Source: Candidatus Altimarinota bacterium
GTDB lineage: Bacteria > Patescibacteriota > Gracilibacteria > BD1-5 > UBA2023
Length of the DNA stretch: 64,000 nucleotides
Direction of reading: 5' to 3'
NCBI GenBank assembly: GCA_013268835.1
Contig: JABFSX010000004.1
Coordinates: forward strand, 310,001 to 374,000
This document shows positions 7,920-32,490 of the stretch, piece after piece. A model generated the notes under the pieces. The model worked only from the letters and a program-made list of their open reading frames with translations, had not been told where the DNA came from and ran no database searches. Both the position numbers and the translations under genes were made by a program. Position 1 is the first letter of the stretch. Every line of letters starts with the position of its first letter.

Positions 7920-8795
7920 TTAGGATTTTCTCTCCATTACATATTGTTTAATTTCTATAAATTTTTGATTCTCTAAATCCTGAAGAATTATATCCATCTG
8001 GACTCCAATTTCTTCAAGGATTTTTTTTGTTTCCCCTATTCAAAACATCGTAACTAGTCACTTCTTTTGATTTTGATCTTTTCCTACCGTTTTTCATAAA
8101 GTAGCACTCTCTCCTTCATGATCGAGGATATCATCTCGAACCTGAAATGCTCGACCAAGTAAAATTCCAAATTTTCTAAATACATCGAGTTGTTCTCTAT
8201 TTGCTCATGATATCATTCCACCAATAATAAGACAAGAAGCAATAAAACCTCCTGTTTTTTCATCATGAATCCTCATAATATCTGCAAGAGAGAATCCTCA
8301 TTGATCCCCAAGCGTATCTCGCACTTGTCATAATACAACCCCAGTATCACCTGTGGTATGAGCTATTTCCGTTATTACTCGAATATCACCAAGGGTTGCA
8401 AGTTGTTCAAATGCCATCGTCTGAAGTGCATCTCCAACTAAGATTGCCATAGTTTCACCATACTGTTTCCAAACTGTTGGTTTCCCACGACGAAGGATAT
8501 CATTATCCATACAAGGGAGATCATCATGAACCAGCGTATAACAATGTAAAAGCTCAATTCCAATCAATCCATCTAATACCTCATCTGAGCATTCTTGTCA
8601 TGAAATCTGCTCATAAGCAAGCATAGAAAGTATTGGACGGAGTCTTTTTCATCATCATTCGACTGCATGTCGAAGAGCAAGAATAAAATCAGATTCTAAT
8701 CATTGAGAAGATGAAATATTATTTTTTGCAAAATATCGCAATATTGAATTATTGACTCGATTTTGATATACAGGAAGCCAGGAAAGTATTGCCAT
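7920..8795 (-). CDS. Polyprenyl (geranylgeranyl/farnesyl-type) diphosphate synthase
   Basis: A 291-residue trans-prenyltransferase that builds short prenyl diphosphates, the substrates of UppS encoded just upstream. Motifs: AVEGGGKRLRP (about residues 41-51), where all three glycines are consecutive TGA codons; the first Asp-rich motif [11 protein letters not shown] near residue 85; and the second, QVRDDILD, near residue 210. The residue pattern before the first motif fits a C15-C20 enzyme, but chain length cannot be fixed from the sequence. Start ATG 8795 lies 8 bases after the uppS stop, so the two form an operon. Confidence 0.93.
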
Positions 8796-15261: not shown

Positions 15262-18096
15262 TTAATCCTTAGCTTGTTCAAAGCCTATAGGTGGTTCCAT
15301 ACGCATAAGTGGATTATATTCGATAATCACTGGATATTTAGCAAGATCATCTGTAGGAGTTGTGAATAGCTGTGGAAGGCTACTTGTATTTGTACATGAA
15401 CCCACGACACAAGTCTCTCAACCAATAATCAAACCATTTCCAAAAGGCTTACCACCGTATAGATAATACCGTCTAAGGTAGTTTAGATCATATTTTTGAG
15501 CATCAATTGGTGTCGAGCAGGAAATATTCAGAAGAGAAGGACATCGTATTGGATTCATTCGAGAACCACCAAGAGTATTTTCACTTACGATAGATCCAAA
15601 AATATGGAGCTGATTTTTTAATACACCAATATTACCGACTCCAATTTCATTGGCACCATCATAACTCATGATACTTCCATCAATTATATAAGTACCAACT
15701 ACATTGGTAACAGCTGGACTAATATATAGATTTCATCCATTTCCATTTTTATCTTTTTGTATTACCACCCCAAGAATGGAGTTTGAATTTGCATAAAACA
15801 TGTTTGTATCAATATATACATTTGCTCACTTTACTACAAGAGTTCTCTTTCATGAAATTCAAGAAGCAGGACTTAGGGTAAAATTTCATCAGGTTTTTTT
15901 CAATTGAATAATAGAAGTATCAGCTCATTTTTCAACAACACCTCATTGTGATCATGCTCCAGCAGGTAATGAGGTAAAATTAGTTATCGAACTTCATGCT
16001 GAAACTAGTTGCATATTTCTCGTTGCCATAGCCACAGACTGTGCTATATTATTTCGAACTACAGAACGAGTTAATCAACTAAATATACTTGTACTGTCAG
16101 CGAATTGTCCATCCACTATGGATGCAATTGTATTACTTGCAATAGGTCCGATTACCTTAGCACCTACCTGATTTCCAATATTTGTAACTATAGTACTAAA
16201 ATAATATGGTTTACCGATAACATCACCGTTATAGAGAACATTTTTCCCATCAAGTAAATATGAATAATGTGTAGATAATTGAAGACTTGATCCCGTTGAT
16301 ACAATTTTATTGGCTATTTGTTCAAGTTTTGTATATAGATCGGTGCCACCACTTCAAGGATTAACTGTCATAACAGATCTTGTAGGAGTTATAGGAGTTG
16401 TACTACTTGAAGTACTTCATCCAAAGAGATTGAAATCTCACACATTTGCACCACTAAATTCAAGCTGAAGCTGAATAGATGCTGGATCCACAGCACCAAG
16501 ACTATTATCATTGACATCAATACGACTCTGCTGCTCGGTACCCTCGATGAATCATCCATTTCTCAAATTTCAATTAATATCAGCCAAATAAAGTGGAGCA
16601 AAATAATGTTCAACTGGCTGATTTGACCCTACTGGAGCATCAAATGATTGGGAAAAGGTTTCATTGATACCAAGATCATCCGTAACAACAAGATTCATCG
16701 TAAAGCCAAATTCTGCCCATGGATCAGAAATTGGCTCACCCGATGCATAACCATTTTCAGTAGGAGTATATACCTTTATTTCTAGTGGGTATGAACCATC
16801 TGGGGAAGTTAGAACATTTGGAAAAGATTGTGTAGCACCAAAACTGAGATCTACAGAAACATTATTTGGAGCCATAACGAATACTGATGTTCCTGATGCT
16901 GTAGAACGAGTATATTGATTCAAAAACATTGAATTTATTATTCCTGAGAGATTCATCCTTATGTCTCTATTGATACCTGTTGCAGGAATAATAACATTAC
17001 CATAACCATCAGATATAGTTTGAATAAAGTTTCTTGGTTGACCATCAGCAACAGCAGAATCAAATTCTAAAGTATCCTGTGGATTTGTTGGTAAATAATT
17101 TGGATTTGCATATACATTATGTGGAATAATTTTTAGAGGGGCTGGTATAGATACACAGTTCCCTGCTTGATCACAAATCTTATCTATCAATATAGTTACT
17201 TCTCTACCACCAGTTATTGGATCGCGATCAATATCTACATTTGATACATCGGCAATATATGGATATACAAAACTATAAGGATCAGGAGTTACAAATGAAT
17301 CATAGCTAGATGGATCGCCATTTTTCTCGACACGATACCATACCTTCACTGGGGCTGCTGCATCATTGAAGCTAAGATTCAAATTTTGATTATCAGTAGC
17401 GAGGACATCTTGATCTGAAGTATCACTAAGATCACCCGAACTCGGTGGTGTTGTATCAATACGAACAACTCCATTTGCTGAAGAATTTGATGTCCAAGCA
17501 GTACAAATATTAAGTGCATTATCACGAGGACAGACCTCAAATGCATATGCATACCCATCAAGTCAAGTATAATTATAGGTATACAATGGACCTGGACCTG
17601 CAGCCACATTGGTGAGGGTTGTCAGAAGAGTAACTGGCGTTCCCTGTGCACCAGCAATTCGATAAACCCGAATATCATAATCCTTAAGCCCTGAGCCCCC
17701 CGTATCATTAGCATTCCACTTTAATGTAATGGTAGTTGTATTCTGCCAACCTCATGAGGCTGTAGGTGGTGCAAACTCGAGATTTGATGCGGTTGGAGAT
17801 GTTGAATCCCAATAATAACACTGCATTAATGGATGCACGATAGTAGTTACCTGAGCCTGACGATTCCTTCCATATGTGGCGGTTTCAAAATAAATTCATA
17901 AGCCACCCAAGGGTCACGTAAGATCTGCTAATGTTGGTCATATAGCATCTGGCAAAAGTGGTTCATCTTCAGGACAATTCGCTATTGAGATATTTTGCCA
18001 CTGAGGATTATACCATTTTGCATATATCTCATTGTTTCATAGAAAAAATGAAATACATACGATACCCAAAAATACTATTTTTATATTTGTTTTCAT
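15262..18096 (-). CDS. Large secreted surface protein, 944 aa
   Basis: ATG 18096 begins an N-terminal signal peptide (MKTNIKIVFLGIVCISFFLG). The mature part is beta-rich, Thr/Ser/Asn-rich, with a fibronectin-like segment around residues 115-215 (TLKWNANDTGGSGLKDYDIRVYR) and Cys pairs typical of exported proteins. The C-terminal region (about residues 745-850) shares a module with the 1477- and 769-residue proteins: Arg-Thr-Leu-Val-Val-x-Gly, GGNLYI, and a Leu-x-Ile-x-Gly strand. About 20 TGA codons are used. No sortase-type or transmembrane C-terminus is seen. Function is probably adhesion or envelope structure, by inference only. Confidence 0.85.
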
Positions 18097-18202: not shown

Positions 18203-20293
18203 TTAATATAAAAAGATACGTGTTTCTAAAAGCTGAAAAACAAATTTTGAGAAAATATCCTTATTTTCCTTTGATAGAGTATTCATATTGGCCTCCAATG
18301 AAATTTCAGAATTATACGTTGATAAAAAATCTTTAAAAAATGTTGGAACAATAATGGAACGATCACTTACCCAATTGTACAACTGAATATTTCCTTTTTC
18401 ATCTTCATCCATCCACTGATTCCCGAGAGCAACCTGAAAATATTGCTCCTTGATTTTCTCTAATCCCAAAGGAATAATGGCAATATTTTGCCTCCAATAT
18501 GTGAAATACGGATTCTCCCGATAGAGGCGTTTCATCAGATAAAATAGTGCCGTACGATCGATAAACGTCCAAAAATGAAATGCATCAATCGATCCAGGCT
18601 GAAACCATGATAAGAATTGGGTAATATGGACTTTCTGTGCTATCTGATGATAGAAATTAAAGTTTCTTGGAATACCATTTACCTGAAAATTGTAGTTCAA
18701 CGAAAAATCCGATGTTCCCTCTTGAATCACCTCAATCCCAAATCGTTTTGCCTGAGTGAAGTAGTTCGTTCCTCGCATCAATGAGAGTACGTTCGGTGTA
18801 CACGTATAGTGATGAAGTGTCTTGATATTCTGAATCAGGAATCTCGCATTCATAAGAGATTCCTCTTTCGTTTCAGTTGGAAAACCAAATATGGCATAGT
18901 TATGGAGTGCAATTCCAGAATTGTTGAAATAATGAATTATCTCTTGTTTCTTCTGAACTGAAATAGAACCAAGTCACTTGTTGATAGTCTGTTCCAATCG
19001 ATCAATCGCACTCTCAAGTCCGATTCCACAATATCGAGCTCATGACTGATAGAGCTTATCACAAAAATCCTGCGTATACGCGAGTTCGAATCGGGCTCGA
19101 AACTGATAGAGAATATGCATTCATTCCGCAATGAGCACATCAGCAAAGTATTCTATAACACCTGGATGAATCGCCTCATCCATAAAAACGACATGTACAA
19201 TATTATTTTTCTTCAGAAACTGAACACACTGATCTACATATTTCCGTGTTTGTTCGTCTTTCTCAGCACGGAAAGAATAGAGATGTGTGGAGTTGATAGC
19301 ACAGAAGTTGCACGCACTCCAATAGCACTTATACGGCAGCAACCTGAGAACAATACTTGGAGTTCCTGCAATCGGTGTAATATTCTGTTCTGAGAGATAA
19401 TACCTGGTAAAGTTCTCATAGAGTTCATTCTCATCAGGATTCCGAGAAGGTGGAATAAACTGTGTCTGATTCTCAGAATTGCGATGGATAATATTTTGTA
19501 TATCAGAATCACTCGGATCTCATCCATTTGAGAGCTTCTCTAAAAGGGCATTCATGGCGACTCCATAATCCTGATATACGAGAAAATAATCAAAATAATC
19601 GAATACATGAGGATTCTGTGAAAACGCCTCAACCCATTTTGTGAAATCAAACTGTTCATTTCCATGGGTCGCATCGATGATAATTGTGTTCCCATTTTTC
19701 TTGAGAATACTACAAATCATCAGTATTTGAAGGAGTTCCCCTGGCCAGAAAAAATCGATAATCACAATCGAATTATGTATGTCCTCGGCTTCCAGAATCG
19801 ACTTGATGAATCGATAGGGAGAATGAATTTCTCCTTCTTCTATGATCGACTCGATAAGGGAAATATCTGGATTATCACTATTGAAGTTCATACTCGAAAA
19901 TGTCACTCACTGAGCGAGATCGATCTTCCAATTCTTCTCAAAAACATTATGAAGCTTGATAAGTTCATTCATGATTCGGTAGCCAAAAATCACTTCTTCT
20001 GGTTTTGGTGGTTGATGAGAAAAACCTTGGAATATCTTCTTCACCGATTCCATAGACCCGAGCAAATATGAGAAATTCTTCAAGAAAAATTGATGAAAAG
20101 CAGTATGACTACCTTCTCATTTCAGCTTCAGGAAAGATTTCAGGAGATTTTTCGGAGAAAAAAGGAATTGCCAAAATTGAGGCGAAAGATGGATGGATTG
20201 GATTTTACTGTTTGATCCACGAGATGTTTTTGATTCAACAAAACTCGTATGATTGAATTTCGTGATGGGATGAATCTTGTATATCATTTTCAT
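18203..20293 (-). CDS. Radical SAM protein with B12-domain-like N-terminus
   Basis: A 696-residue protein. Residues about 1-75 could be a small winged-helix (RRE-like) domain. Residues about 135-300 form a Rossmann-like region (FFWPGELLQILMICSILKK) resembling the B12-binding domain of RiPP-maturing radical SAM enzymes, but the DxHxxG cobalamin motif is not evident. The 4Fe-4S motif is C323-x4-C328-x2-C331 (KCYWSACNFC), the spacing I associate with B12-type RiPP enzymes. Four TGA codons are read as Gly. ATG 20293 is 11 bases after the stop of the double radical SAM gene. It is the last gene of the locus. Substrate unknown. Confidence 0.8.
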
Positions 20294-20304
20294 AATTGGG
20301 AGAA

Positions 20305-22023
20305 TTATTTCTTTGTTTTCTGATATTTGTTGAGAATTGCGAGTAACCGTTTTTTCGGAGAAAAATCAATCGTATCCTTTGTATGAAAAGAGAAGGAATT
20401 CGTGTCTATTTTCCCCTCTGCAGAAATGTCGATAACCTTGTGTGAATCAGAGTTTAGACAATACATCTCATTACCATAGTGTTCCATAATAATCTCCATC
20501 TGAGAATCTACAATATTCCATATATCATCATCCCACACATATTTCTCACCATAGAAAAGTTCGAAATTGAATTTCCGATATCAGAGTTCGAAAATATCCT
20601 GAAATGATACGAAAAGTGATGATGCCTGTTTCGGTCAAAAACCCAGAAGAATGACGATACGTTCTTTTGGAAAAAATTGAGTTAGTACAGTGAGTCCATT
20701 TTGGAGCTTATCATAACTCCGATCCCGAGTTTCATTGTGTGTAACTCTATTCCCATTCCATGAGATATGAATATCAAAATCATGTGATGCAAGATATTCA
20801 GCAATCTCAGGATTCATGAGTATTGCATTGGTAGCAATACGATACTGCATTTTCTTTCATAGTTTTTCTACAAGAGTATCAGAGAACTCAACGATTCTGC
20901 GAATATTCTCGAACTTGAGAAGTGGTTCTCCACCAAAAAATGATATTGCCTTTTTCTCACCATCTCACCGAAGGTGCCATTCGACAATATTGATAGCCGT
21001 CTCATAAGAAAGCTCTTGATTATTGAAATCCAGATAACAATAATTGCAACGCAAATTGCACTGATTCGTCATATTCAGACGAATCTCGTCGTATGGACCA
21101 GTGAGAAAATTCTTATTCCCACGAACCTTCTGAATAGAAATAAAGAATTCAATAAATACTTCATTCAACTGATGAAATATTTTTGCTCTTTGTTCAAGAA
21201 CTGTCTTATCTGCTTGGTAATCGAGATACCAAGAAACCGGACAAATACAGAACCACTTGTGTTTGCAAGAAAAACATCCATTCACCTGATCGAAATAATC
21301 AAATGCATGATGATATTGGAATCATTCTGGAATCCGATCAATTCGATTACAAAGGAAAGTACTTCCCTGTTCATCTACCACTGTTTTATGACAATCACTC
21401 GACTTCATCTCAAGCGTATCCATATCAGGCCCGAAAAAAATAAATTTCCGATTTTTCTCAGTCAACTGCACCAAATTTTCTAGTGCTTTTTCTATCTGAA
21501 TAATGCTTTCTCTTGTCCAGTCAGCATAGATCTCAGGAGCGAGTGCAAACTGATAGAAGCCATATTTCTCCAAGAGAAAAATAAGCTCAACGGGGCTATC
21601 GATGAGATGTGGCTGAAAAATAATACTAAATCGAAGTAGGTCTCGAATCGGAAAAATCGTTTCCAGATATTTCTTCCCGAAGAATTTCCCGAACGAACGA
21701 AAATGAAGAGAATTCTCTACCAGAATTCGATGGTGGTTAATAAATTCCACTTTTTCAGTATCGAGAAGACTTCCATTCGTGATGATGATGAATTCCATTT
21801 CTGGCTTTTTCTCTCGGGTCGTTTCAACGATTTTTGCAATATCTTTCCATTTGATGAGTGGCTCTCCTCCAATAAATCGGATCATATCATATTCCAAGAG
21901 GTTGATGCGCTCAGAAAATTCCTCATGTTGAAAATCCTGAACCTTGCTTTCCAGTTCCACATAACAATACTCGCAATTGAAATTGCATACTTTTGTGATA
22001 TATATTTCGATGGTTTTTTTCAT
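20305..22023 (-). CDS. Tandem (two-module) radical SAM protein
   Basis: One 572-residue chain with two complete radical SAM modules. Module one has C13-x3-C17-x2-C20 (VCNFNCEYCYVE) and FIGGEPLIKW; module two has C322-x3-C326-x2-C329 (QCNLRCNYCYLD) and FFGGEPLLKF. Between them (residues about 215-265) is a cysteine cluster including CFSCKHKWFCICPVSWYLDY, as in SPASM/twitch auxiliary-cluster domains. Four or more TGA codons lie on glycines; without them the gene appears as five fragments. The C-terminal 75 residues lack cysteine clusters. Start ATG 22023 is 5 bases after the upstream stop. It probably performs two linked steps on one peptide, by inference. Confidence 0.88.
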
Positions 22024-22028
22024 GGATT

Positions 22029-22748
22029 TTACTCGGTAAAATAGATTTCTTTTCTTTCTTTTTCTTGGCAGAGATACTTGATATTCCAGTGTGGATTTAT
22101 TCGTACTATCCCGTCAATTTCTCACATCCATCCACTGGATTTGAGTATAGAGATGTCTCAGGGTTTTGCAAAACGAATAAAGTATTTCTGTCTTTCATTT
22201 TCAGAGAAAGTTCGCATCACTCCCGTATATCCTACATCCTCTTTTGAGAGATGAATATCTCAGAGCATCGGACAATACGAGGTATCTATAATCTCATATA
22301 TTTTTGGTACGATATTTCCTTCGAGAATATCAAAACCAAAACAATCAAATCGCTGATATCCTTGGGTAAGCTGGTATCCTGAAAGATGAGGAAAAAGTGT
22401 TTTGAGAAATTCTATTGATACTTTTGCTTCATTTGAATTCTGCTGATATAGAGAAACATAGAACTTTTTTCGATGAGACTGGGCATCGTATCCAACATGG
22501 AATGGTTGATCTGAGAATTGATGAAATATCTTTTCTATAATATCATGTTTTTCTTGACTCAAATTATGAGAAACATAGCGAAAGATGATATCTTTTCTCC
22601 TTGCAAAAATCCGAATATCAGAAGGTTCTGAAAAATGCAACACCTTGGAAATGCTTGTTTCTCAGAGCATATGAGCATATTCGAAATATCCCGTTTCATC
22701 ACGAAAAAGTTTCTGGAATGCGATGATGGAGGAATGGAATATGGACAT
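22029..22748 (-). CDS. Unknown protein of the radical SAM locus, 239 aa
   Basis: ATG 22746-22748 lies 2 bases after the asparagine-synthetase-like stop; TAA is 5 bases before the double radical SAM start, so it is firmly in the operon. Two strands repeat a pattern: GYDAQSHRKKFYVSL (near residue 82) and GFDILEGNIVPKIYEI (near residue 135), i.e. Gly-aromatic-Asp, a turn, Lys and Tyr. Weaker copies follow. Repeats of this kind are seen in ABBA-fold prenyltransferases, but I have no stronger evidence and do not assign that function. Four TGA codons (Gly). Confidence 0.75.
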
Positions 22749-22750
22749 AA

Positions 22751-24175
22751 TTATTGTACTAAATTGTCATGAAATTTCTGCAAAAGGATTTTAGAATAAT
22801 CAAGCAATGAGGCATCATACGCATAGGAGAAATCAATTCAGAGATTATAACCATACTCCCCCTCTACGATTGAGAGTCATTTTGAGTTGAGAAACATTTC
22901 TGCTTCTTTTCGATAAGTTTTATAATTTTTAAATCGAAGAAGTTCATAATCTGTAAATGGTAGACGCCTTTCGATACCATTTCGGAGCGTTAATTTATCA
23001 ATCATCTGGAGATTATAGTCAAACATCTCATGATTCAGGAATTCCTGATCAATCTGAAAATCCTTTATCATTCCTCGTGAATGAAAGTGTTTGTATCTTC
23101 CTATGATTTCATTATAGGGAAAATGAGTATTAGAATTAATAAGTTCCTCTTTTCCATCACCTCAGAATTCTACTCGCACATGTGCGTATTCTGGGTATTG
23201 TTCTTTCAATATCTTTCAAAGATTCGGAAGATAGACCAATCATTCATGCTCATAGACTTCATTAGGGACTTTTCGTCCATCCATATTGATGAGCAAGTGA
23301 GTAATTCCGTGAAACTTTGCATTCTTCTTCGCAATCTCAATCTCGACCATATTCTTCTCGGTGACAAAACTATAGGCAATGATTTCTCCTTGATAGTATT
23401 TCTTGAGAAAATAGAGTATCAAATTCGAGTCTGGTCCTCCTGAAAGAGATACAAATATCTCATCTTGAAAATATGGAATTCTTCTTTTTACTGCTTGTTC
23501 CAAAGTATCAATGAAAGACATCTCTAGATTCTGAGGAATATAAGAATCAAATACCTCCGTTCGAATCTGGAAATCCTGAAATACTATATAAGTTCCCGAA
23601 CAGAGCGTTGATATGCCTTCTATTATCGTACTGGGACTGATTCCAAACTGGAACGTCATATGTTCTATGAAATTTTTCTTGTTGAGTATTGGTTTTCAGA
23701 AAATAAGCGTCTTGATCTCGGAAGCAAAATACAACACCCCTTTTTGAATTGTATAGTAGAGATTATTTGTTCCCCAACGATCACGAAAAAAGAAATATTT
23801 TTTTTCCTGCTTATCATGGATAAATATTGAGAATTCCCCATTTACAAAATTGATAAAATTTTCCCCCAGTGCATCATATACTCGTGCAATAACTTCACAC
23901 TCAGTGAAATCATCTGGATTCTCTTGTATTCCTATTTTTCTAAGAAGGAATTCTTTGTTGTATATCTCACCAACAAGTCCAATAACCAAATCTTGATACA
24001 AATATGGCTGACTAGTATCCTTATCAAGATCTGAGACTTTCAGATGTGCATGATAAAAAGAGAGGGTATCCTCATAATAAAAATAAGAATTATCGACTGC
24101 ACGAGGAGCAAGTGTTGCAGCCATTTTCTGAAGAATTGCTTCATTATGCGATGTGCATCCAGTAAATCAACACAT
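22751..24175 (-). CDS. Asparagine-synthetase-like (class II glutamine amidotransferase) protein
   Basis: A 474-residue AsnB-type protein. It starts MCGFTGC, giving the N-terminal nucleophile Cys2 after Met removal (the Gly is TGA), with RDRWGTNNLYY near residue 130. The ATP-pyrophosphatase loop is VSLSGGPDSN (near 225), and FGGDGKEEL replaces the usual SGEGSDEL (near 345). It is shorter than AsnB (about 550-620). In peptide and natural-product loci such proteins form amides or isopeptide/lactam bonds on carboxylates. Here it sits 6 bases downstream of the aminotransferase, so a role in amide formation on the product is plausible, not shown. Confidence 0.88.
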
Positions 24176-24181
24176 AACTAA

Positions 24182-25387
24182 TTAATTTTTAGTGAAAAAA
24201 TTATACATATTTGCAATAATATTTTTTGCAAAAAATATTATTTGCTCGTTTGAGAGACAAAGTGGTGGGCATACTATTATTGTTGTATCAGTCGGATACG
24301 CTAAAATTATCCCAGATGATAACATCTGTTCTTCCATTTTTAACTGATTAAACTTTTTTTTTGAATGTATCGCAAATAAAAAACCATCTCATTGAATGAA
24401 AAAATTATCATCAGTAATCTCATTTTTTAATGTTTGAAGCCAGATTTCTGAAGACTTATTTTTTATATTTAGCGATATAATATCCTTGAGAATTTCAATA
24501 TTTTTTAGTCAAATCTCGGCGCTGATTCATGACCAAGCAAAAGTAGAATAATAAGAAAATTCTTTTTTTAAACTATCCCTTACCATAACACATCAAGCTT
24601 GTGCGTATCAAGAAGTTATTCCTTTTGCACAACAAAGAAGATCTGGAATAACACTATAATGTTGGTAGGCAAACCAAGTTCAAAATCTTCCAAATCAAGT
24701 TACCACTTCATCAAAAATTAATAAAACTCCATATATATCACAAAGTTTTCGAATTTCTTGAAGTACCTCTTTTCAAAAAAATACGCCCCGAGAAAATGAG
24801 ACAAATGGTTCCAAAAGAAATAGACTTATCTTTCAAGATTTAAATAATTTTTCTATATCTGATAGAAATTTAATTGAATTCAATTTTCACTCTGAATCAA
24901 GTTCTAAATCAATTCAGAGTGAAAAAATTTTTTTTTCATATATTTTCACTTGAAAAATATTCATTTTTTCTAAAGAAGAAAAAAGAATTGAAAGAAAAAA
25001 AGAGTTTCAATGATATCCATCACGTAAAAATAATACCCCCCCACCTCATTTTTCTTGTAATCATATTTGTATCGCAATCTCCACAGACTCTGTTCAGCTT
25101 GTTGTTCGATATAGGTAAAAGAAATCATTATTTGTAATTTCTTCAAGCTTATCTCAAAGACGTACTTGGGATTTATTTTTAAACATTTGAAATACATATT
25201 CCGTCTCTTTTGATATCTCTTCAATATAAGAAATCATCTTTAAATTCTTATGTCAAATATTGACTACTGCTCAAGAAGAAATCAAATCTGCATATTTATT
25301 ATTTTGATGATCTATCAGATATATTTCACTAAAAGAAGTAACGAATGGATACTCAATGGAGTTGTTATAAAATGAAACTATTTTCAT
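24182..25387 (-). CDS. Class III PLP-dependent aminotransferase
   Basis: A 401-residue fold-type I aminotransferase. Motifs: YRTTSGTESVEIAIQ near residue 85, FDEVVTGFGRFGTWFA near 225-240 (Asp of DE binding the pyridine N), and CCAKGITSGYAQAGCV near 255 with the PLP lysine. This is the class III (glutamate-semialdehyde mutase, ornithine aminotransferase) pattern. The N-terminal 40 residues are shorter than usual. Many TGA codons are read as Gly, including a run before GGGVLF. Its ATG overlaps the SDR gene by 10 bases. The amino acceptor is unknown. Confidence 0.9.
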
Positions 25388-26163
25388 ATTTTATGATAGT
25401 AAGATTTTAAAAAAAGATTAATTTTGGCTTTAATAGCTAAGATAATTATCATCTTAGATTTAAAAATTGTATTATCAATAATAACCTCATGATCTCAATA
25501 ATTTGATTGGCTTATTATATTACTAATAATCTCATAAAAAGATTGCATATCTGTATTATATGCCAACTCTGGCATTACAATATTATCTGGGTAATATGGA
25601 TATATTATATTCCTATGAAGATTTGTATTAAATGGTCATGGCATGATATTATATATGTCATATATAGCCTTATATTCTTCTCTCAAATGGTCAATAATTA
25701 CATTAATACCTGCCTTTGTTGCACTATATAAAGAAATACCTGGTATATACATCTCACTAGCAATACTACTCATGAATATAACTTTCACTTTTTTTTGAGT
25801 CCCATGATTTCTATTTTGAAATAGATATGACAATAATCAAATATGACCTATTAAATTGCTCTCAAAAAGATAACGAATTTGCTGAGTTGAGAATCAAAGT
25901 GTTCAACCATATGCCATTTTTCATGCATTCAAAATCAAAATATCAAAATCAAAACTATTCAAATTATTAAAATAATAATCTTTTTCAGGATGAAAATCAA
26001 TATCAATGGATGTGATTCATTTTTTGTTAAATACAGAAACAATATCCTGATGTTTATCAATTGAAAATCAAGCAATAATATTATACTCAACTATTTCTGA
26101 TAATTTTTCAGCTAAAAATCTTCAAAATCAAGAAGAAGCTCAAGTTATTAATATATTAATCAT
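25378..26163 (-). CDS. Short-chain dehydrogenase/reductase
   Basis: A 261-residue SDR. The cofactor loop is TGASSGFGRFL (residues about 7-17, several Gly from TGA), followed by a downstream LILNAG (NNAG-like) motif. The catalytic residues are Ser in FMSSIASEMY and the Tyr-x3-Lys of SLYSATKAGINV. It would oxidise an alcohol or reduce a carbonyl with NAD(P)H. The gene starts 7 bases after the preceding gene and its last codons overlap the aminotransferase. Paired SDR and aminotransferase could oxidise and then aminate the same carbon, an inference from adjacency. Codon use is strongly AT-rich. Confidence 0.88.
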
Positions 26164-26170
26164 GATTTAA

Positions 26171-27007
26171 TTAGGCCAAGAAGTCAAAATACAATTCCAC
26201 TATATCTTTTTCAAAAGCAATTGCAACGATTGGGATACCAAATAAAGTACGTAAAATTATTGCATCAAATCAAATCAAAATAAATATTGATATGTTACTT
26301 TCATTAATATGAAAATTATCAGAAGCCACCATATTATATATAATTTTTTTTGTAACTATTCAATCCCTGAGGTACCTATATAATATATGAAAACCATTAA
26401 ATTTATATTCAGGATATATCTTATATATAAGCACATGGTGTATTTGATGATTTTTTTGAGTATATACAGATGAATCATACATTTTATATATCTTATATGC
26501 TGTTATATCTATATCATTAAACTGAATAGCAGCGAGTGTCGGTACATCATTAAATAATTCTAAATCAATATATACTGAAGATTCTTTAGCTAAATTAATA
26601 AAAGCAGATATCTCTCATACTGAGAGTGTTGAATAATTCACGTAATTATAATGAAACTTATCTGATATAGAATTATAATGAAATCAATACCAAAATGCAC
26701 CATATAAACTATATACAGTATAAAATTTTTTTAGAATATTTGAAACTTTTGCATTAGATCAAATAACGTCATGGATAATAAATTCATAATTAAAATATGT
26801 GGAATCCCTTTTGGGAACATCACTATATAAAACCCCGTTAAAATCAAAATTCTGAAATTCATCATTTTTCAAAGAAAATTCTAATCGCAAAGATCACTCT
26901 AATTTAGAATGATGTAAGTATTTTCTTATAGCACTAATTATTGAGCTATTCATACTTAATTCTTTTGGGAAATCTTTATTTTTTAAATAATTAATAAATT
27001 GATCCAT
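26171..27007 (-). CDS. Unknown protein of the radical SAM locus, 278 aa
   Basis: ATG 27007 overlaps the FAD-like gene by 17 bases; TAA 26171. The protein is rich in Tyr, Phe, Asn and Ile. It shows repeated Tyr-Lys-Ile-Tyr strands (DITAYKIYKMYD near residue 185 and HVLIYKIYPEYKFNGFHILY near residue 205), reminiscent of the Lys-x-Tyr strands in the 239-residue unknown of the same locus. No cysteine clusters and no catalytic motif I can name. The two unknowns may be distant homologues. Very AT-rich codon use (TTT, AAT, ATA). Confidence 0.7.
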
Positions 27008-27929
27008 TTTTTAAAAAGAGAATATATAAATAGGTAACCTTTTCTATCATATAGTTAACTCTATTAAAGATAGGATTTGCTTCTTCATACTTAAAATAAG
27101 TAAAATTTTTTAAGTATGAATCCATATCAAGAAATATTTTCTTTCTAAACTTTAATAAGGTATCTAGATATACTTTATTATTTGAGATAATAAACATTAT
27201 AGTTAGCAACGTATCTATGATAGCAAGTTGGTTAGATAATCATAGAATAATAGGCCCAAATCAACGTCATGATCAAATTAATAACTCCATAGAATCATTA
27301 TAATCATTATAAACATGAAATTCTTTAAATTGAAAAATATCTATATTGATACGATTTATTTTTAAAAAATTTTTTGCATCATTTATTCAATTATAGGTTT
27401 CATTTATCGGAATATACCAAGCAATATAATAATTTCCATCTCAACCTGAATATCAGTATACTGGCATTTTATTAATACTAAATTCAAAATTTTTTTGTCA
27501 TTTTCTAGCTTTTGCAGAGCAAAAAACAAGTTTATATAAGAAAGAACTGGATCTGTTCCAATTTTTTACAAAATCCTCTCTTTTTGCATAAATATTAATT
27601 TCTTCACCCTTTATTACTTTTTTAGGATGAAAATTATTCTTCATTTCATGAAAACATTGATCTATACCAAGAGGTGATAGGATACATCATTTATTTTTAA
27701 ATGAAGAATTATTCATATCTAAAATATCTATTTCTCTAAAAATACGAGAATAATCTAACTGAAAAATACTTTTTAAAGTAGGAATAACAATTTCATTCAT
27801 TCAAGTAGGAATGAAATCAAATTTTGAATTTACTGAAACAGTATCTAAATTAAAATTTTTTTTTAATAAAAATTGAATTAAAAAACTTGCAAATCAACTT
27901 CCATGAACAATAATATTCTTTTCATACAT
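26991..27929 (-). CDS. Putative FAD-dependent oxidoreductase
   Basis: A 312-residue protein beginning NIIVHGSGFASFLIQFLLKK (residues 5-24), a beta strand followed by Gly-x-Gly-x-x-x-x-x-x-x-Leu as in FAD-binding Rossmann folds. A later Gly-rich motif GSGRGFGPIILGLSNQLAII (near residue 225) resembles the second FAD motif of halogenases and monooxygenases, with three or more glycines encoded by TGA. The lack of a full GxGxxG leaves some doubt. Its 3' end overlaps the next gene by 17 bases. The substrate is unknown; a modification of the peptide or its building block is inferred from context. Confidence 0.6.
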
Positions 27930-27949
27930 AATTTTATATTCTTTATAAA

Positions 27950-29068
27950 TTATACATGCATATATGTTTTAGCAGAATCTATATATTCCTGATATTTTTT
28001 ATTGGCTTTTGCAAGCAAACGAATCTTGCTAGCATATTGTTCCGTGATTCTATCACGATATCATAGAAGTTTGTTCATCTGAACAATTTGCAAAGTCTCT
28101 TGAGAATCATGAAAATATCCCAATCGACAATCTGCACAATGAGTTGAATCATTATCAAACTTACATCCGATATATTTATTCACTTTTTCTATAAAATCCC
28201 CATCATTAATATTCGCTGGCACGTATACAGAATAATCTCGTTCTTTATTTACAAACGGATTAAACAAGATATCACCATTGGTGAATGCTTCAGTATAGAA
28301 CCAAAGACACCGTCACTTATTCTTTGAAGATATCATATGAAACCTGAATTCCTTATTGAGTGCGTTCAGATAGAGAAAGTGTCATTTTCCGATTTCATCC
28401 AATAAGTGATCATGTATCTTCACCAATTCGGTAATCCATTTTTTCTGCATATCAGTAGACCAGACCTTTCCATCCACAGGAGCGATATTAATCGTACAAG
28501 CAAATTCGAGATCTACCGTAAGATGAATATAAGAATCGTAGAGATTTTCCACGGTATTTTCATCAATGGTCATTGCAATCCCGAGATGTGTATCGATTAT
28601 ATTAGAGACAATAAGATCTTTATGGACAATTACAGAATCATATGATGATTTTCATCAGAAAAATTTTCGATTCTTATCATGCATCTCTTTTGTTCCATCA
28701 ATACTCCAAGCCAGATAAATCTGGTGTTCCCGAATAAAATCCAGTCGTTCTTGAGTAAATCCAATACCCGAAGTACAGAAAGAAATATCGAGTTGCTTCC
28801 CTGTTTCTTTTTCGAGTTTTCGAGCATACTCAATGCCATGTTTGATAATATCAAAATATATCAATGGTTCGCCCCCAAGCAAATGCAACAACTTATTATG
28901 TCATGGGGTGTACATAAGAAGTTGTATAAGTTTTTCAAGGGTAGGCAGTTCAATACTGCGATTATTATCTTTATCAACAAAACAATAAGAACATCGAAGA
29001 GGACAACCCTCTCCAACAATAATCTTCACAAAATATATTTGCTTATCGAGCAAAGAAAAATCAACCAT
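27950..29068 (-). CDS. Radical SAM peptide-modifying enzyme (SPASM-type)
   Basis: A 372-residue radical SAM protein. The 4Fe-4S motif is C22-x3-C26-x2-C29 (GCPLRCSYCFVD), followed by HLLGGEPLIYF (SAM-contacting Gly-Gly-Glu-Pro) and SIDGTKEMHD. Near the C-terminus a Cys group (IGCKFDNDSTHCADCRLGYF) fits a SPASM or twitch auxiliary cluster. Gly from TGA in four or more places. The gene starts 2 bases after the membrane-anchored unknown. It may take the place of HxsC, the second radical SAM partner of Hxs systems, but sequence inspection alone does not establish that. Confidence 0.85.
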
Positions 29069-29070
29069 AT

Positions 29071-29769
29071 TTATGGTAATAGTTTAAAGTAACCATCACA
29101 TATTTCTCGCCAACCTGAAAATAGATTTTTATCTATATTATTGCAATCACTTAATGATTTTGCATGAAAAAAATCCATCTGAACCAAACAAGCCTTTCTA
29201 TCTGCTTCTACAGGAAAGTAATTTTCATCTGAACAATATGCTCGATTATTAGCAATAGTTTCAGCTATATCCATATCTTGTCCTATTGCCTTTCCTGTAA
29301 ATATCGATTCACGAAAATACTGAATAAACTCTTTATCCGTCTTAAATGACTCAACAAATTCTTTATTTTTCTCATCTTTTAGAAGGGCCTTATAGAGCAA
29401 ACTAAGAAAAGTATCAGTATGATCATCAATTTGTTTCCTTCTTTCCGTCTTTAGAATCTTCCCTTCTTGAAGAATTTTTTGAGTCGTTAGAAGATAGGAA
29501 CTAAGATAGTTTTGCTCGATTATTTTACTAACTTGAGATTCATCATGGATGAATAAAAAATTCTCCACTAATTGTTCTACACTATTTAATTGTAGATCTG
29601 GAACATTTTTTTCTACTGATCAAGAAATCGTTGAATTTGTTATACTGAGAGAAGTTTGTGTCCTCTCAGGATTTATTCAATCTCATCTTTTCTGAAAAAG
29701 ATAGTATCCAAAATAAATTCCTAAAAGAAATAAAAAAACAAAAATGAAGAGAAGCGATCCTTTATTCAT
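29071..29769 (-). CDS. Membrane-anchored unknown protein, 232 aa
   Basis: ATG 29767-29769 begins with MNKGSLLFIFVFLFLLGIYF, a single N-terminal membrane anchor followed by a hydrophilic Ser/Thr-rich linker and a helical, charged domain (about residues 70-232). Cys residues near the C-terminus (AYCSDE, KACLVQ, DCNN, EICDGY) could form disulfides outside the cell, similar in style to the Cys-repeat protein at 46234. It lies 17 bases after the precursor and 2 bases before the radical SAM gene. No protease or transporter motif is visible. Confidence 0.75.
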
Positions 29770-29786
29770 AATATAAATATATTAAA

Positions 29787-30269
29787 TTAGCACCATCCGC
29801 CGCCACTACCGGATCAAGATCATGATCAAGATCATGAATTTGAATGAGTCGCATAGGCAGCATCCGTTGTTAGACTTCATCAATTTAGTCACCCCCCTTG
29901 TATAGTGGCATTACCATTTGCATGCCCATTTACTACTTCATAGTAAGGGGCTATTCCCGCATTTGTATAGATCGTACCATGCAATCTGCTTTGAGGAAGT
30001 GCGCATCCAGCATCCGCTCACCCATTATAATAGCGATCTATCGTCGTGGGTGTACCTGCTAATTCTCAGAAAGAAACCGTATTAGAAGCATAGCTTGTAG
30101 TACAGGCAGCGCTCACTTGATCTACTCATAACATTGTAGTTACAATGCCCATGGTAATCATACTCATTTTAAGTGCATCTTCCGAAACCAACTTTCCACT
30201 TTCGATAGAAAGAAACCCGTTAAGCTTCTTTTGAAATTTTGGAATATTTTTTTTCTTTGATTCTGACAT
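29787..30269 (-). CDS. Putative precursor peptide with Ser-Gly repeat and Trp-Cys end
   Basis: A 160-residue small protein between the HxsB-like gene and the membrane-anchored unknown. The N-terminal leader is basic then helical (KFQKKLNGFLSIESGKLVSE, residues 11-30), followed by a hydrophobic stretch (MSMITMGIVTTML) and a Thr/Ala/Gly/Asn-rich middle. The C-terminal core, residues 142-160, is HSNS followed by a Gly-Ser ladder (six Ser-Gly pairs in total) and GGWC. Gly 146, 148, 150 and 152 are TGA. Only three Cys (about residues 58, 87 and 160). Layout resembles HxsA of His-Xaa-Ser systems or GrrA Gly-rich precursors, but no H-x-S repeat is present. Core cleavage site is unknown. Confidence 0.8.
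29790..29846 (-). repeat. Ser-Gly repeat in the precursor core
   Basis: Nineteen codons whose middle is a near-perfect 12-base repeat unit on the minus strand (TCA TGA TCT TGA, twice) followed by TCC GGT AGT GGC GGC GGA TGG TGC. The repeat encodes Ser-Gly pairs with UGA as Gly, then switches to GGN codons. Confidence 0.9.
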
Positions 30270-30327
30270 AAAATAGAAAATTTAATTGTAAGTAATTGTA
30301 TTTTTTTTATTGAAAAAGTAAAATTTT
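30270..30327 (-). promoter_or_regulatory. AT-rich gap before the precursor gene
   Basis: The only gap over 20 bases inside the 14-gene unit. It carries long A/T runs that could hold an internal promoter for extra expression of the precursor. I see no clear consensus boxes. Confidence 0.3.
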
Positions 30328-31779
30328 CTAAATTCCAAGCCAAGATCGAAATATCTTCTCATTTTCTGGATCTCTTAGTTTATCAAAAAGATAATCTAAC
30401 ATAACAATCTGTATAGCAACTTTTTCATCTTTTGAAAAATTTGAAAATAAATTTCAATTTTGAGTGAAAGAATAAACAAGATCAACTCCAAGATATGGTT
30501 TATATACGTAATCCATATATCAAGGAAGTCAATCGAGCGTACTCGCCTGAACACAGATTTTTGTAACAGCAGAATTCGCCATAGCCTTATACGTCTCCTC
30601 TCCAGAATCTAATAAAGGTGTAAGCAAAAAATCATCCTTTCCCATACGCCCCAGCATTCGAGCATCATCACCACTATATACCTTTCCATCATAGTTATAA
30701 GCAACATACCCAATTGCAGCACCTGAAGGTGAGCGAACATCCATAAATCCACTATCAACATTATTCAATATTTTATTCAAGAAAACAACTGAGATCATTT
30801 CCTTGAAAAAAATTCACTGCTTATTTTTTTCAAGGATATAATCCATTGCATCTCTATAAAGTTCTGCATATTCCTTGAGAGAAAATTCCAATTTTTCACG
30901 CTCAGCAAGAGCGAATCAATAAGGATTCAGCCATCTTAGTCAAATAGTTGTAAGTCCAATATCTATATAAGAATCTATAATTTTTTTAAAATCCTGTAAT
31001 CCAACTTTAGTCCAAGTAGCCAAAGCATTAACCTTATATCAAATTTTTCATCTTTTTTCGTTCTCTTCGGTAATTCTACGTATCCAGTACGTTACTTTTT
31101 CAAAACTGTCACCATCTTTCCAAACTCTTTGTCTATTATGTGTAACTTTATCTCCATCGAGAGAAGTACAAATATCAACTCCATGGTCTAATAACCAAGC
31201 TAGCTTCTCTTCGTCCATGATGGAAAGATTTGAAACTAACACAAAATTTACTCACTTATGGAGTACATAAGCTTTCATTTGTGCATATTCAACAACAAAT
31301 TTGATTACCTCCCAATTTACAAGAGACTCCCCTCCTTGAAATTCAATAGTAAGCCATGGAGATGAAGAATAAAAAATAGTATCTACTACTTTTTTTGCCG
31401 TCTCCTGAGTCATATCCAACTCCTTAGCAGTCATAGGTGCCACAGCAGCATGACAATATTGACACTTATGAGTACAACGAAGTGTTGTAACCAAAATATG
31501 AAGTGCTGGTCAGAATGCAAGAAACCGATTCTTCTTATTATAAGCAATTACAGCCCGATCTTCATACGTATCATTTTTAATAAAAAGTTTTGCATCAAGT
31601 TCTCATAGTTTTTCTCAAGTTATTTTACCAAGGTAAAAATCTTGAAATTCACTCTCAGTAAGATGCGAATAATATCCAAATTCGTTAGTAATAAGATAAT
31701 TTCCATTATTTTTACGAGAAAAATAAAATGGAGCTATTTTTTTAGAAAAATGATGAATGGATTCAAGACTTAGGCTCAT
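30328..31779 (-). CDS. HxsB-like radical SAM maturase lacking auxiliary-cluster cysteines
   Basis: A 483-residue radical SAM protein. The cluster motif is C102-x3-C106-x2-C109 in TTLRCTHKCQYCHAA, preceded by a roughly 95-residue N-terminal domain as in HxsB (His-Xaa-Ser system maturase). The C-terminal half follows HxsB closely: YDGKVYSGDDARMLG, then ASTLDGLPGYMDYVYKPYLG and a FRSW end. In the family as I recall it, the segment PxCxxCxYxPYCG supplies auxiliary-cluster cysteines; here the three positions are Tyr, Tyr and Leu. About 12 TGA codons (Gly). It may have one cluster only. Overlaps the short HxsD-like gene by 10 bases. Confidence 0.85.
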
Positions 31780-31970
31780 ATAGTATTTTCAAGTGAAATA
31801 GAAAGCATATAATTCATTAATTCATCAAAGATATATTGTGAATCATCTTCTTCAATTGAAATAACAGAATCAGAATAGATAATATTATATCCAACAAAGG
31901 TCAGAATCGCCTCTTGAATGATATTCTCAGGATAGATATCTTTATTTATGTTGAAAGTTTTTTTTGACAT
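31770..31970 (-). CDS. Short HxsD-like protein, 66 aa
   Basis: ATG 31970 to TAA 31770; the frame passes one TGA (Gly) before ending Gly-Ala. Residues 9-25 (KDIYPENIIQEAILTFV) followed by a strand pair and YIFDELMNYMLSISLEN recall HxsD of His-Xaa-Ser systems: an N-terminal Ile-Tyr helix and a C-terminal helix with Asn-Tyr. The gene overlaps the longer HxsD-like gene by 29 bases and the HxsB-like gene by 10. It may be a substrate-binding helper. Small size limits certainty. Confidence 0.6.
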
Positions 31971-32490
31971 CTTTGAGCTTATTAGGATCTATTTTAGGTT
32001 TCTGTAGTACCTGTGCATCTGCTTCGATTTCTGCAAGAATCCGATTAATCTCCTCTTCATCAATCTTAAAATCTGGATCAGTCTCTATTTCACGAAGTAT
32101 TTCATCAATATCTTTATCAAAATCTATTTGTCATGATGAATTTTGTGATGCATCAACACTTTTAAAATTAGGAAGATCCGCATAAGAACCAAGAGCACGA
32201 CGTACAATCGTCTCACGAACTATCTTATTTTCATTTTCTATCTGAACTCTAAGAGAATAAGCAAGAAGTTCATCAGAATATTCAAGTGCAAAATGCTCAG
32301 CACTCCATTTTTGTCATTCCTTTGGAGTTATTTGTACTACAAGTTGATTATTTTCTATATAAAAGAAGAAATATGCTCTATCAAGAAATACATATGCTGC
32401 CTTCATAGAAATACTTAATGAGAAAATATTGATATCAATCAAAACTTCTAGACGATTATTTTCTATATTTTTGGAAATAAAATTTTTCAT
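31942..32490 (-). CDS. HxsD-like protein with acidic C-terminal extension
   Basis: A 182-residue protein, first gene of the unit. Residues about 20-95 match the HxsD layout: strand and helix SISMKAAYVFLDRAYFFFYI, a short beta pair, then FALEYSDELLAYSLRVQIEN and RETIVRRAL. HxsD proteins are usually about 90-100 residues; here an extra 85-residue acidic, Glu/Asp/Ile-rich coiled segment follows. Two TGA codons (Gly). Roles in Hxs systems are not known with certainty; binding or presenting the precursor is the usual guess. Assignment rests on pattern resemblance. Confidence 0.65.

Follow-up and report, generated by a model that had tools for sequence, protein, structure and literature searches.

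His-Xaa-Ser (Hxs) systems consist of the set HxsA, HxsB, HxsC and HxsD, described by Haft and Basu as cited in PMC9062424. A second point of reference is PapB, a thioether-forming radical S-adenosylmethionine (SAM)/SPASM ranthipeptide maturase (PMC9413430). In the open-access literature we found very little about Hxs and no account of radical SAM loci in Gracilibacteria. To our knowledge, no Hxs system has a known product. Here we analyse a stretch of 64,000 nucleotides (hereafter the window) from Candidatus Altimarinota bacterium (assembly GCA_013268835.1, contig JABFSX010000004.1, positions 310,001 to 374,000, forward strand), in which minus-strand genes running from 32490 to 18203 probably constitute an Hxs-type system for ribosomally synthesized and post-translationally modified peptides (RiPPs), with swappable downstream modules that modify matching C-terminal segments of the precursor. 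A sequence-only reading of this DNA had pointed to an apparently undescribed radical SAM peptide-modification locus that combines Hxs genes with additional tailoring enzymes. This is supported, and we found no matching description in the open-access literature, subscription papers and preprints lying outside the search.

The host belongs to the Gracilibacteria, and translation used code 25 (TGA = Gly). Genes are numbered from g01 at the 32490 end to g14 at the 18203 end. The tight, co-directional packing of 14 genes that had been claimed earlier is borne out: all 14 open reading frames are open in code 25, with intergenic gaps of -29 to +58 nt. The standard code breaks them into fragments, which may in part be why gracilibacterial Hxs clusters could have been overlooked. 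The count of five radical SAM modules in four proteins also stands, with g03 identified by TIGR03978, g06 by Pfam, g13 contributing two modules and g14 recognized by fold. Comparisons drew on 353 genomes of the class and 77 genomes of the window's order; relatives are designated below by genome (G), locus (L) and contig (C) numbers where needed. The core genes other than the precursor are as follows.

g01, 31942..32490, minus strand: HxsD, the first core gene, kept in relatives (TIGR03976 59.9 bits, cut-off 50)
g02, 31770..31970, minus strand: second, short HxsD-like protein (HxsD'), position kept in relatives (NF038315 HxsD_rel 26.5 bits, under the cut-off of 41)
g03, 30328..31779, minus strand: HxsB radical SAM maturase (TIGR03978 439.5 bits, cut-off 370)
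g05, 29071..29769, minus strand: membrane-anchored protein, assigned by position and N-terminus only; relatives have a lipoprotein-like gene there

As in canonical Hxs systems, the window has HxsB and HxsD over their curated cut-offs, and the precursors of its relatives resemble HxsA3 and HxsA4 and carry His-Gly-Ser (HGS) repeats. The gracilibacterial loci differ in having no HxsC over its cut-off (0 of 77 genomes of the order; best score 145.9 against 267.9 bits), as many as 17 additional radical SAM proteins, and other tailoring enzymes. The window precursor has a homologous leader, but HxS repeats, which most relatives have, are absent from it. As the locus departs from canonical Hxs in these two defining features, we classify it as an Hxs variant. 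The earlier proposal of an HxsB-like maturase is confirmed, and of the two proposed HxsD-like proteins g01 passes its cut-off while g02 falls below. HxsC is missing, as had been stated, at the curated cut-off; sub-threshold HxsC-like proteins are nonetheless abundant in the order, occurring in 41 of 48 HxsB genomes versus 2 of 29 genomes without HxsB (Fisher p 4e-12, uncorrected for kinship).

HxsB over its cut-off is present in 45 of the 353 genomes of the class, and almost all of these fall into two families of the order to which the window belongs; when sub-cut-off matches are counted, 48 of the 77 genomes of that order have it. In these 48 genomes the core comprises HxsD, HxsD', HxsB, the precursor and a protein that is either lipoprotein-like or membrane-anchored, and it is followed by a co-directional array whose gene content differs from genome to genome. 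The window cluster is one variant of a hypervariable cluster family, and the earlier suggestion of one product from one fixed locus is not supported in that form, since only these core genes are fixed and the rest is exchanged between genomes. In relatives the CX3CX2C motif is carried by 222 of 401 array proteins but by only 4 of the 173 genes that lie upstream of HxsB in those regions, an enrichment beyond chance. Eighteen loci have at least five such proteins, with a maximum of 17, and many array members are HxsC-like, all under the HxsC cut-off.

The segments of the precursor, which we aligned with those of 16 relatives, are listed here.

g04, 29787..30269, minus strand: HxsA-type precursor, 160 amino acids
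Within g04, 30105..30269, minus strand: leader and signal-peptide-like segment ending ...DQVSAA|C, a conserved block in the 17-precursor alignment; cleavage site placed by eye
Within g04, 29922..29933, minus strand: VNGH motif, near-universal in precursors, with H116 invariant and N114 and G115 over 90% in the alignment
Within g04, 29802..29837, minus strand: (SG)6 tract in place of the usual (SHG)n, co-occurring with g14
Within g04, 29790..29801, minus strand: C-terminal GGWC, in 4 of 45 precursors, co-occurring with g13, g06, g11 and g12

The NCBIfam family HxsA3 is matched by 16 of the 17 aligned precursors and HxsA4 by 13, although g04 itself reaches only E 0.029 against HxsA3, below significance. 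What had been read as a Gly/Ser-rich precursor is better described as HxsA-type, its HGS repeats having been lost: its tail reads HSNSGSGSGSGSGSGGGWC and contains no HxS repeat. TGA supplies 10 of the 26 Gly codons of g04 and four Gly, that is most, of the SG tract. We tabulated 45 precursors from the window and its relatives, and these share a plan of basic leader, hydrophobic signal-peptide-like end (judged by eye), usually VNGH, and a tail, most commonly (SHG)n ending in RW, QW, AW or SY. The repeats are lost in the precursors of the window, G123 and G107, and in the first two HxsB clearly stands beside the precursor. HxsB therefore cannot need the repeats, which makes the VNGH region a candidate site of HxsB modification. 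The precursor of G056, about 54% identical overall to that of the window, has a similar middle region but ends in SHGSHGQW, which indicates that tails have been exchanged between these two relatives.

The two unusual segments of the window tail each occur with a particular set of array genes, four for GGWC and one for (SG)n.

g06, 27950..29068, minus strand: PapB-like radical SAM/SPASM protein (NF047865 130.6 bits, under the cut-off of 340; Pfam radical SAM 54 bits)
g11, 22751..24175, minus strand: AsnB-like amidotransferase (TIGR01536 155.7 bits, under the cut-off of 267.1; PDB 1ct9, E 9e-15)
g12, 22029..22748, minus strand: putative PT-barrel (ABBA) prenyltransferase, 239 amino acids (AF2 model and Foldseek)
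g13, 20305..22023, minus strand: double radical SAM protein (PapB-like, 168.2 bits over two stretches, cut-off 340)
g14, 18203..20293, minus strand: cobalamin-type radical SAM protein with CX4CX2C (TIGR03975 39.9 bits, under the cut-off of 281.85; AF2 model)

Five of the 77 genomes encode g13 (the window, G091, G094, G102 and G108), and the precursors ending in GGWC are exactly those of the window, G091, G094 and G102, the g13 loci with a linked precursor. Homologues of g06 are present in the other three GGWC loci (62, 46 and 29% identity), those of g11 in G091, G094 and G108, and those of g12 in G091, G102 and G108 only; in G108, g11, g12 and g13 lie on short contigs without a precursor. PapB ranthipeptide and SCIFF maturases are the best family matches of both g06 and g13, well under the cut-offs, but a single g13 chain holds two radical SAM modules and the precursor of the locus is HxsA-type. 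The C-terminal half of g13 has as its nearest PDB match 5wgg, which we take to be CteB. The AsnB-like assignment of g11, confirmed by its profile although below the cut-off for glutamine-hydrolysing asparagine synthetase, is accompanied by an MCGF glutaminase start at the N-terminus.

Profile searches gave no family match for g12, as also for g07 and g08. The AF2 model of g12, which is of moderate confidence (pLDDT 75.6, built on four sequences), has the fold of the PT-barrel enzymes TleC, DMATS1, CymD and LimF; its Foldseek matches are mostly indole or aromatic (Trp or Tyr) prenyltransferases (best E 4e-4 to 9e-4), with a TM score over the query of up to 0.58, that of TleC. It differs from these enzymes in the missing sequence-family match, its length of only 239 amino acids and its position in a radical SAM peptide locus. 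A prenyltransferase-like fold fits the Trp next to the Cys of GGWC, as judged from the model, yet Trp ends many other tails too. Elsewhere in the window, a polyprenyl synthetase (169 bits) is encoded at 7920-8795, which makes prenyl donors plausible.

For g14, no match was found by sequence against the PDB, and we therefore compared folds. Its AF2 model (pLDDT 83.9) matches OxsB (E 3e-11), AprD4, MgmA, TsrM and CysS. It shares the overall fold of OxsB, TsrM, CysS and MgmA but has CX4CX2C in place of CX3CX2C and only 10-14% identity; it is cobalamin-type by predicted fold, and the match to the RiPP C-methyltransferase family TIGR03975 is distant. The CX4CX2C motif is invariant in all eight aligned g14 proteins, which come from the window, G113, G123, G070, G086, G085, G062 and G063; a search of the whole class found none beyond these eight genomes. 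A pairing of g14 with His-free (SG)n was first proposed from the window, G113 and G123, and was afterwards met in G070, G086 and, as a shorter SASGSGCGDR end, in G085. All five precursors with an (SG) run of at least 8 residues have g14 in their locus.

Between g06 and g11 lies a block of four genes that stands apart from its neighbours.

g07, 26991..27929, minus strand: putative flavoprotein, orphan (Trp halogenase E 0.007, weak, N-terminal; TGA 61% of Gly)
g08, 26171..27007, minus strand: orphan (TGA 60% of Gly)
g09, 25378..26163, minus strand: short-chain dehydrogenase (PF00106 72.6 bits; TGA 71% of Gly)
g10, 24182..25387, minus strand: class III aminotransferase (PF00202 167 bits; TGA 64% of Gly)

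Profiles confirm the aminotransferase and the dehydrogenase that had been named earlier; g10 also has sub-cut-off matches to BioA (170 bits) and to the daptide aminotransferase (107.6 bits). The proposal that g07 is an FAD enzyme found no support from any family match, and a Trp halogenase assignment, although its motif is suggestive, is not claimed at E 0.007. No homologue of g07 was found in the 353 genomes of the class and no significant one of g08 in the 77 genomes of the order. The GC content of g07-g10 is 22-27%, and TGA encodes 60-71% of their Gly as against 19-29% in g05, g06 and g11-g14, a composition that probably reflects recent insertion from a lower-GC, code-25 relative. As the block is compositionally foreign and g07 and g08 lack counterparts in relatives, a role for it in making the common product is conjectural. 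The locus as a whole could alternatively be composite, with an Hxs core that merely shares its transcript with at least one unrelated pathway for a small molecule or glycan. This explanation applies especially to g07-g10, on the grounds just given; for the locus at large we consider it improbable, since in separate lineages the presence of g06, g11-g13 and g14 follows the type of precursor tail, which would not be expected of an unrelated pathway, and the arrays consist mostly of radical SAM proteins. The sequence-only reading had also asked whether relatives carry these genes separately in unrelated contexts: homologues of g11-g14 are confined to Hxs loci with matching tails, apart from distant AsnB matches and the fragmented G108.

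The tail-enzyme pairings might instead be a product of coincidence or shared ancestry. On supported branches of the HxsB tree, however, 4 changes are needed to explain the GGWC label and 5 to explain that of g14, and the (SG)n pairing was predicted before three more loci were found to show it. Agreement among independent pairs is 4 of 4 for GGWC and 3 of 3 for g14; for cross-pairings it is about 1, which is due to the window, where both tails occur together with both modules. Several points nonetheless weigh against matched modules and tails. The pairings were spotted post hoc, independent events are few, and sign tests on so few pairs cannot reach 0.05 alone. G108, a 2.7 Mb bin of 500 contigs, has g11-g13 without a GGWC precursor, its sole recovered precursor ending in RW on another contig; g11 is absent from G102, no g12 was detected in G094, and no precursor was found beside the g14 genes of G062 and G063. 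The scores of g06, g11, g13 and g14 are all under family cut-offs, so the assigned chemistry rests on distant similarity. On balance we regard coincidence or ancestry as an unlikely account. Decay, in which a precursor that has lost its His repeats and falls below HxsA3 significance is no longer acted on by the enzymes, is very improbable given that all 14 genes, HxsB included, are intact and that (SG)n and GGWC tails recur with the same enzymes in separate lineages.

The analysis establishes the gene order, the families of the core proteins, the joint occurrence of each module and its tail segment in separate lineages, and the predicted folds of g12 and g14. Under the favoured reading of swappable modules acting on matching tails, we infer that the enzymes of the locus act on its precursor. 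A secreted HxsA-type precursor would be bound by its leader and modified by the fixed core enzymes HxsD, HxsD' and HxsB; exchangeable modules would then carry out tail-specific modification, and the product would presumably leave by the Sec route. In the window, g14 would act on the His-free (SG)6 tract, g06, g11, g12 and g13 on the terminal GGWC, and g07-g10 would be a recent add-on. More speculatively, g06 and g13 may form a thioether at the terminal Cys, by analogy with PapB and CteB, g12 may prenylate the Trp of GGWC, g11 may amidate a carboxylate, perhaps the C-terminus, and g14 may methylate or otherwise alter the Ser-Gly tract by B12-radical chemistry. Equally speculative is that g09 and g10 together could turn a hydroxyl (Ser) into an amine.

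Other tails and arrays extend this picture. A third tail, GRGCW, is common to G092 and G086 (contig C1), at L140:8833-17297 and L077; homology between the two arrays extends to almost every gene, mostly at 57-74% identity, even though the genera differ, and one of their radical SAM proteins has no further homologue in the set. GRGCW and its genes form another candidate tail-cassette pair. Further families in the arrays of relatives are NifH, nitrogenase component 1, U32, carbamoyltransferase, Trp halogenase and 2OG-Fe(II) oxygenase. A NifH-family protein (273 bits) occurs in arrays of six genomes, including L089:12271-13467 and L073:15268-16083; in four of the six it is accompanied by a protein resembling nitrogenase component 1, one of which scored 113 bits. 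A clear tryptophan halogenase (247 bits; L058:13900-15213) is the last member of the array in G113, a genome whose precursor ends ...SGSW. U32-family proteins are found at L053:3796-4776 and L047:6213-9182, and we presume that they might be oxygen-independent hydroxylases. A second, very divergent HxsB-like lineage, in G120 (C16) and G117, forms a long branch of the HxsB tree.

Outside the phylum, a Nannocystaceae (Myxococcota) metagenome-assembled genome (JAESSZ010000248.1; L037:2434-9503) likewise has HxsB, a precursor of the form (SHG)n...SW and three radical SAM proteins akin to those of the gracilibacterial arrays. Its array is small, it uses the standard code, and no GGWC, AsnB-like, prenyltransferase-like or g14-type gene was seen on the contig; the resemblance makes transfer between phyla likely. 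A Myxococcales locus, L036, has no clear array. Directly after the window's array, 15262-18096 encodes a large secreted-looking protein. Several relatives have a homologue of it adjoining their array, and the opposite strand there frequently carries what looks by eye like a prepilin-peptidase gene. Consensus promoter scans gave no excess over shuffled sequence. Two other identities were rejected: a defence system, for which PADLOC returned only weak viperin-type matches to g06 and g13 (g13 against NF038283, 93.8 bits, cut-off 180), and housekeeping radical SAM proteins, as no locus member reaches the cut-off of such a family.

We raise more tentatively the possibility that enzyme cassettes are swapped together with tail segments as a modular tail code on one secreted HxsA-type peptide family, which, in genomes of about one megabase, would extend from prenylation, thioether formation and amidation to B12-radical reactions and even to those of halogenases and nitrogenase-like enzymes, and in which g09 and g10 may aminate Ser hydroxyls. 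The natural tail-enzyme pairs mean that the peptide site of each enzyme can be predicted and is open to direct testing. That so large and costly a modification pathway is kept in reduced, probably host-dependent bacteria suggests that its product matters for life on or against other cells.

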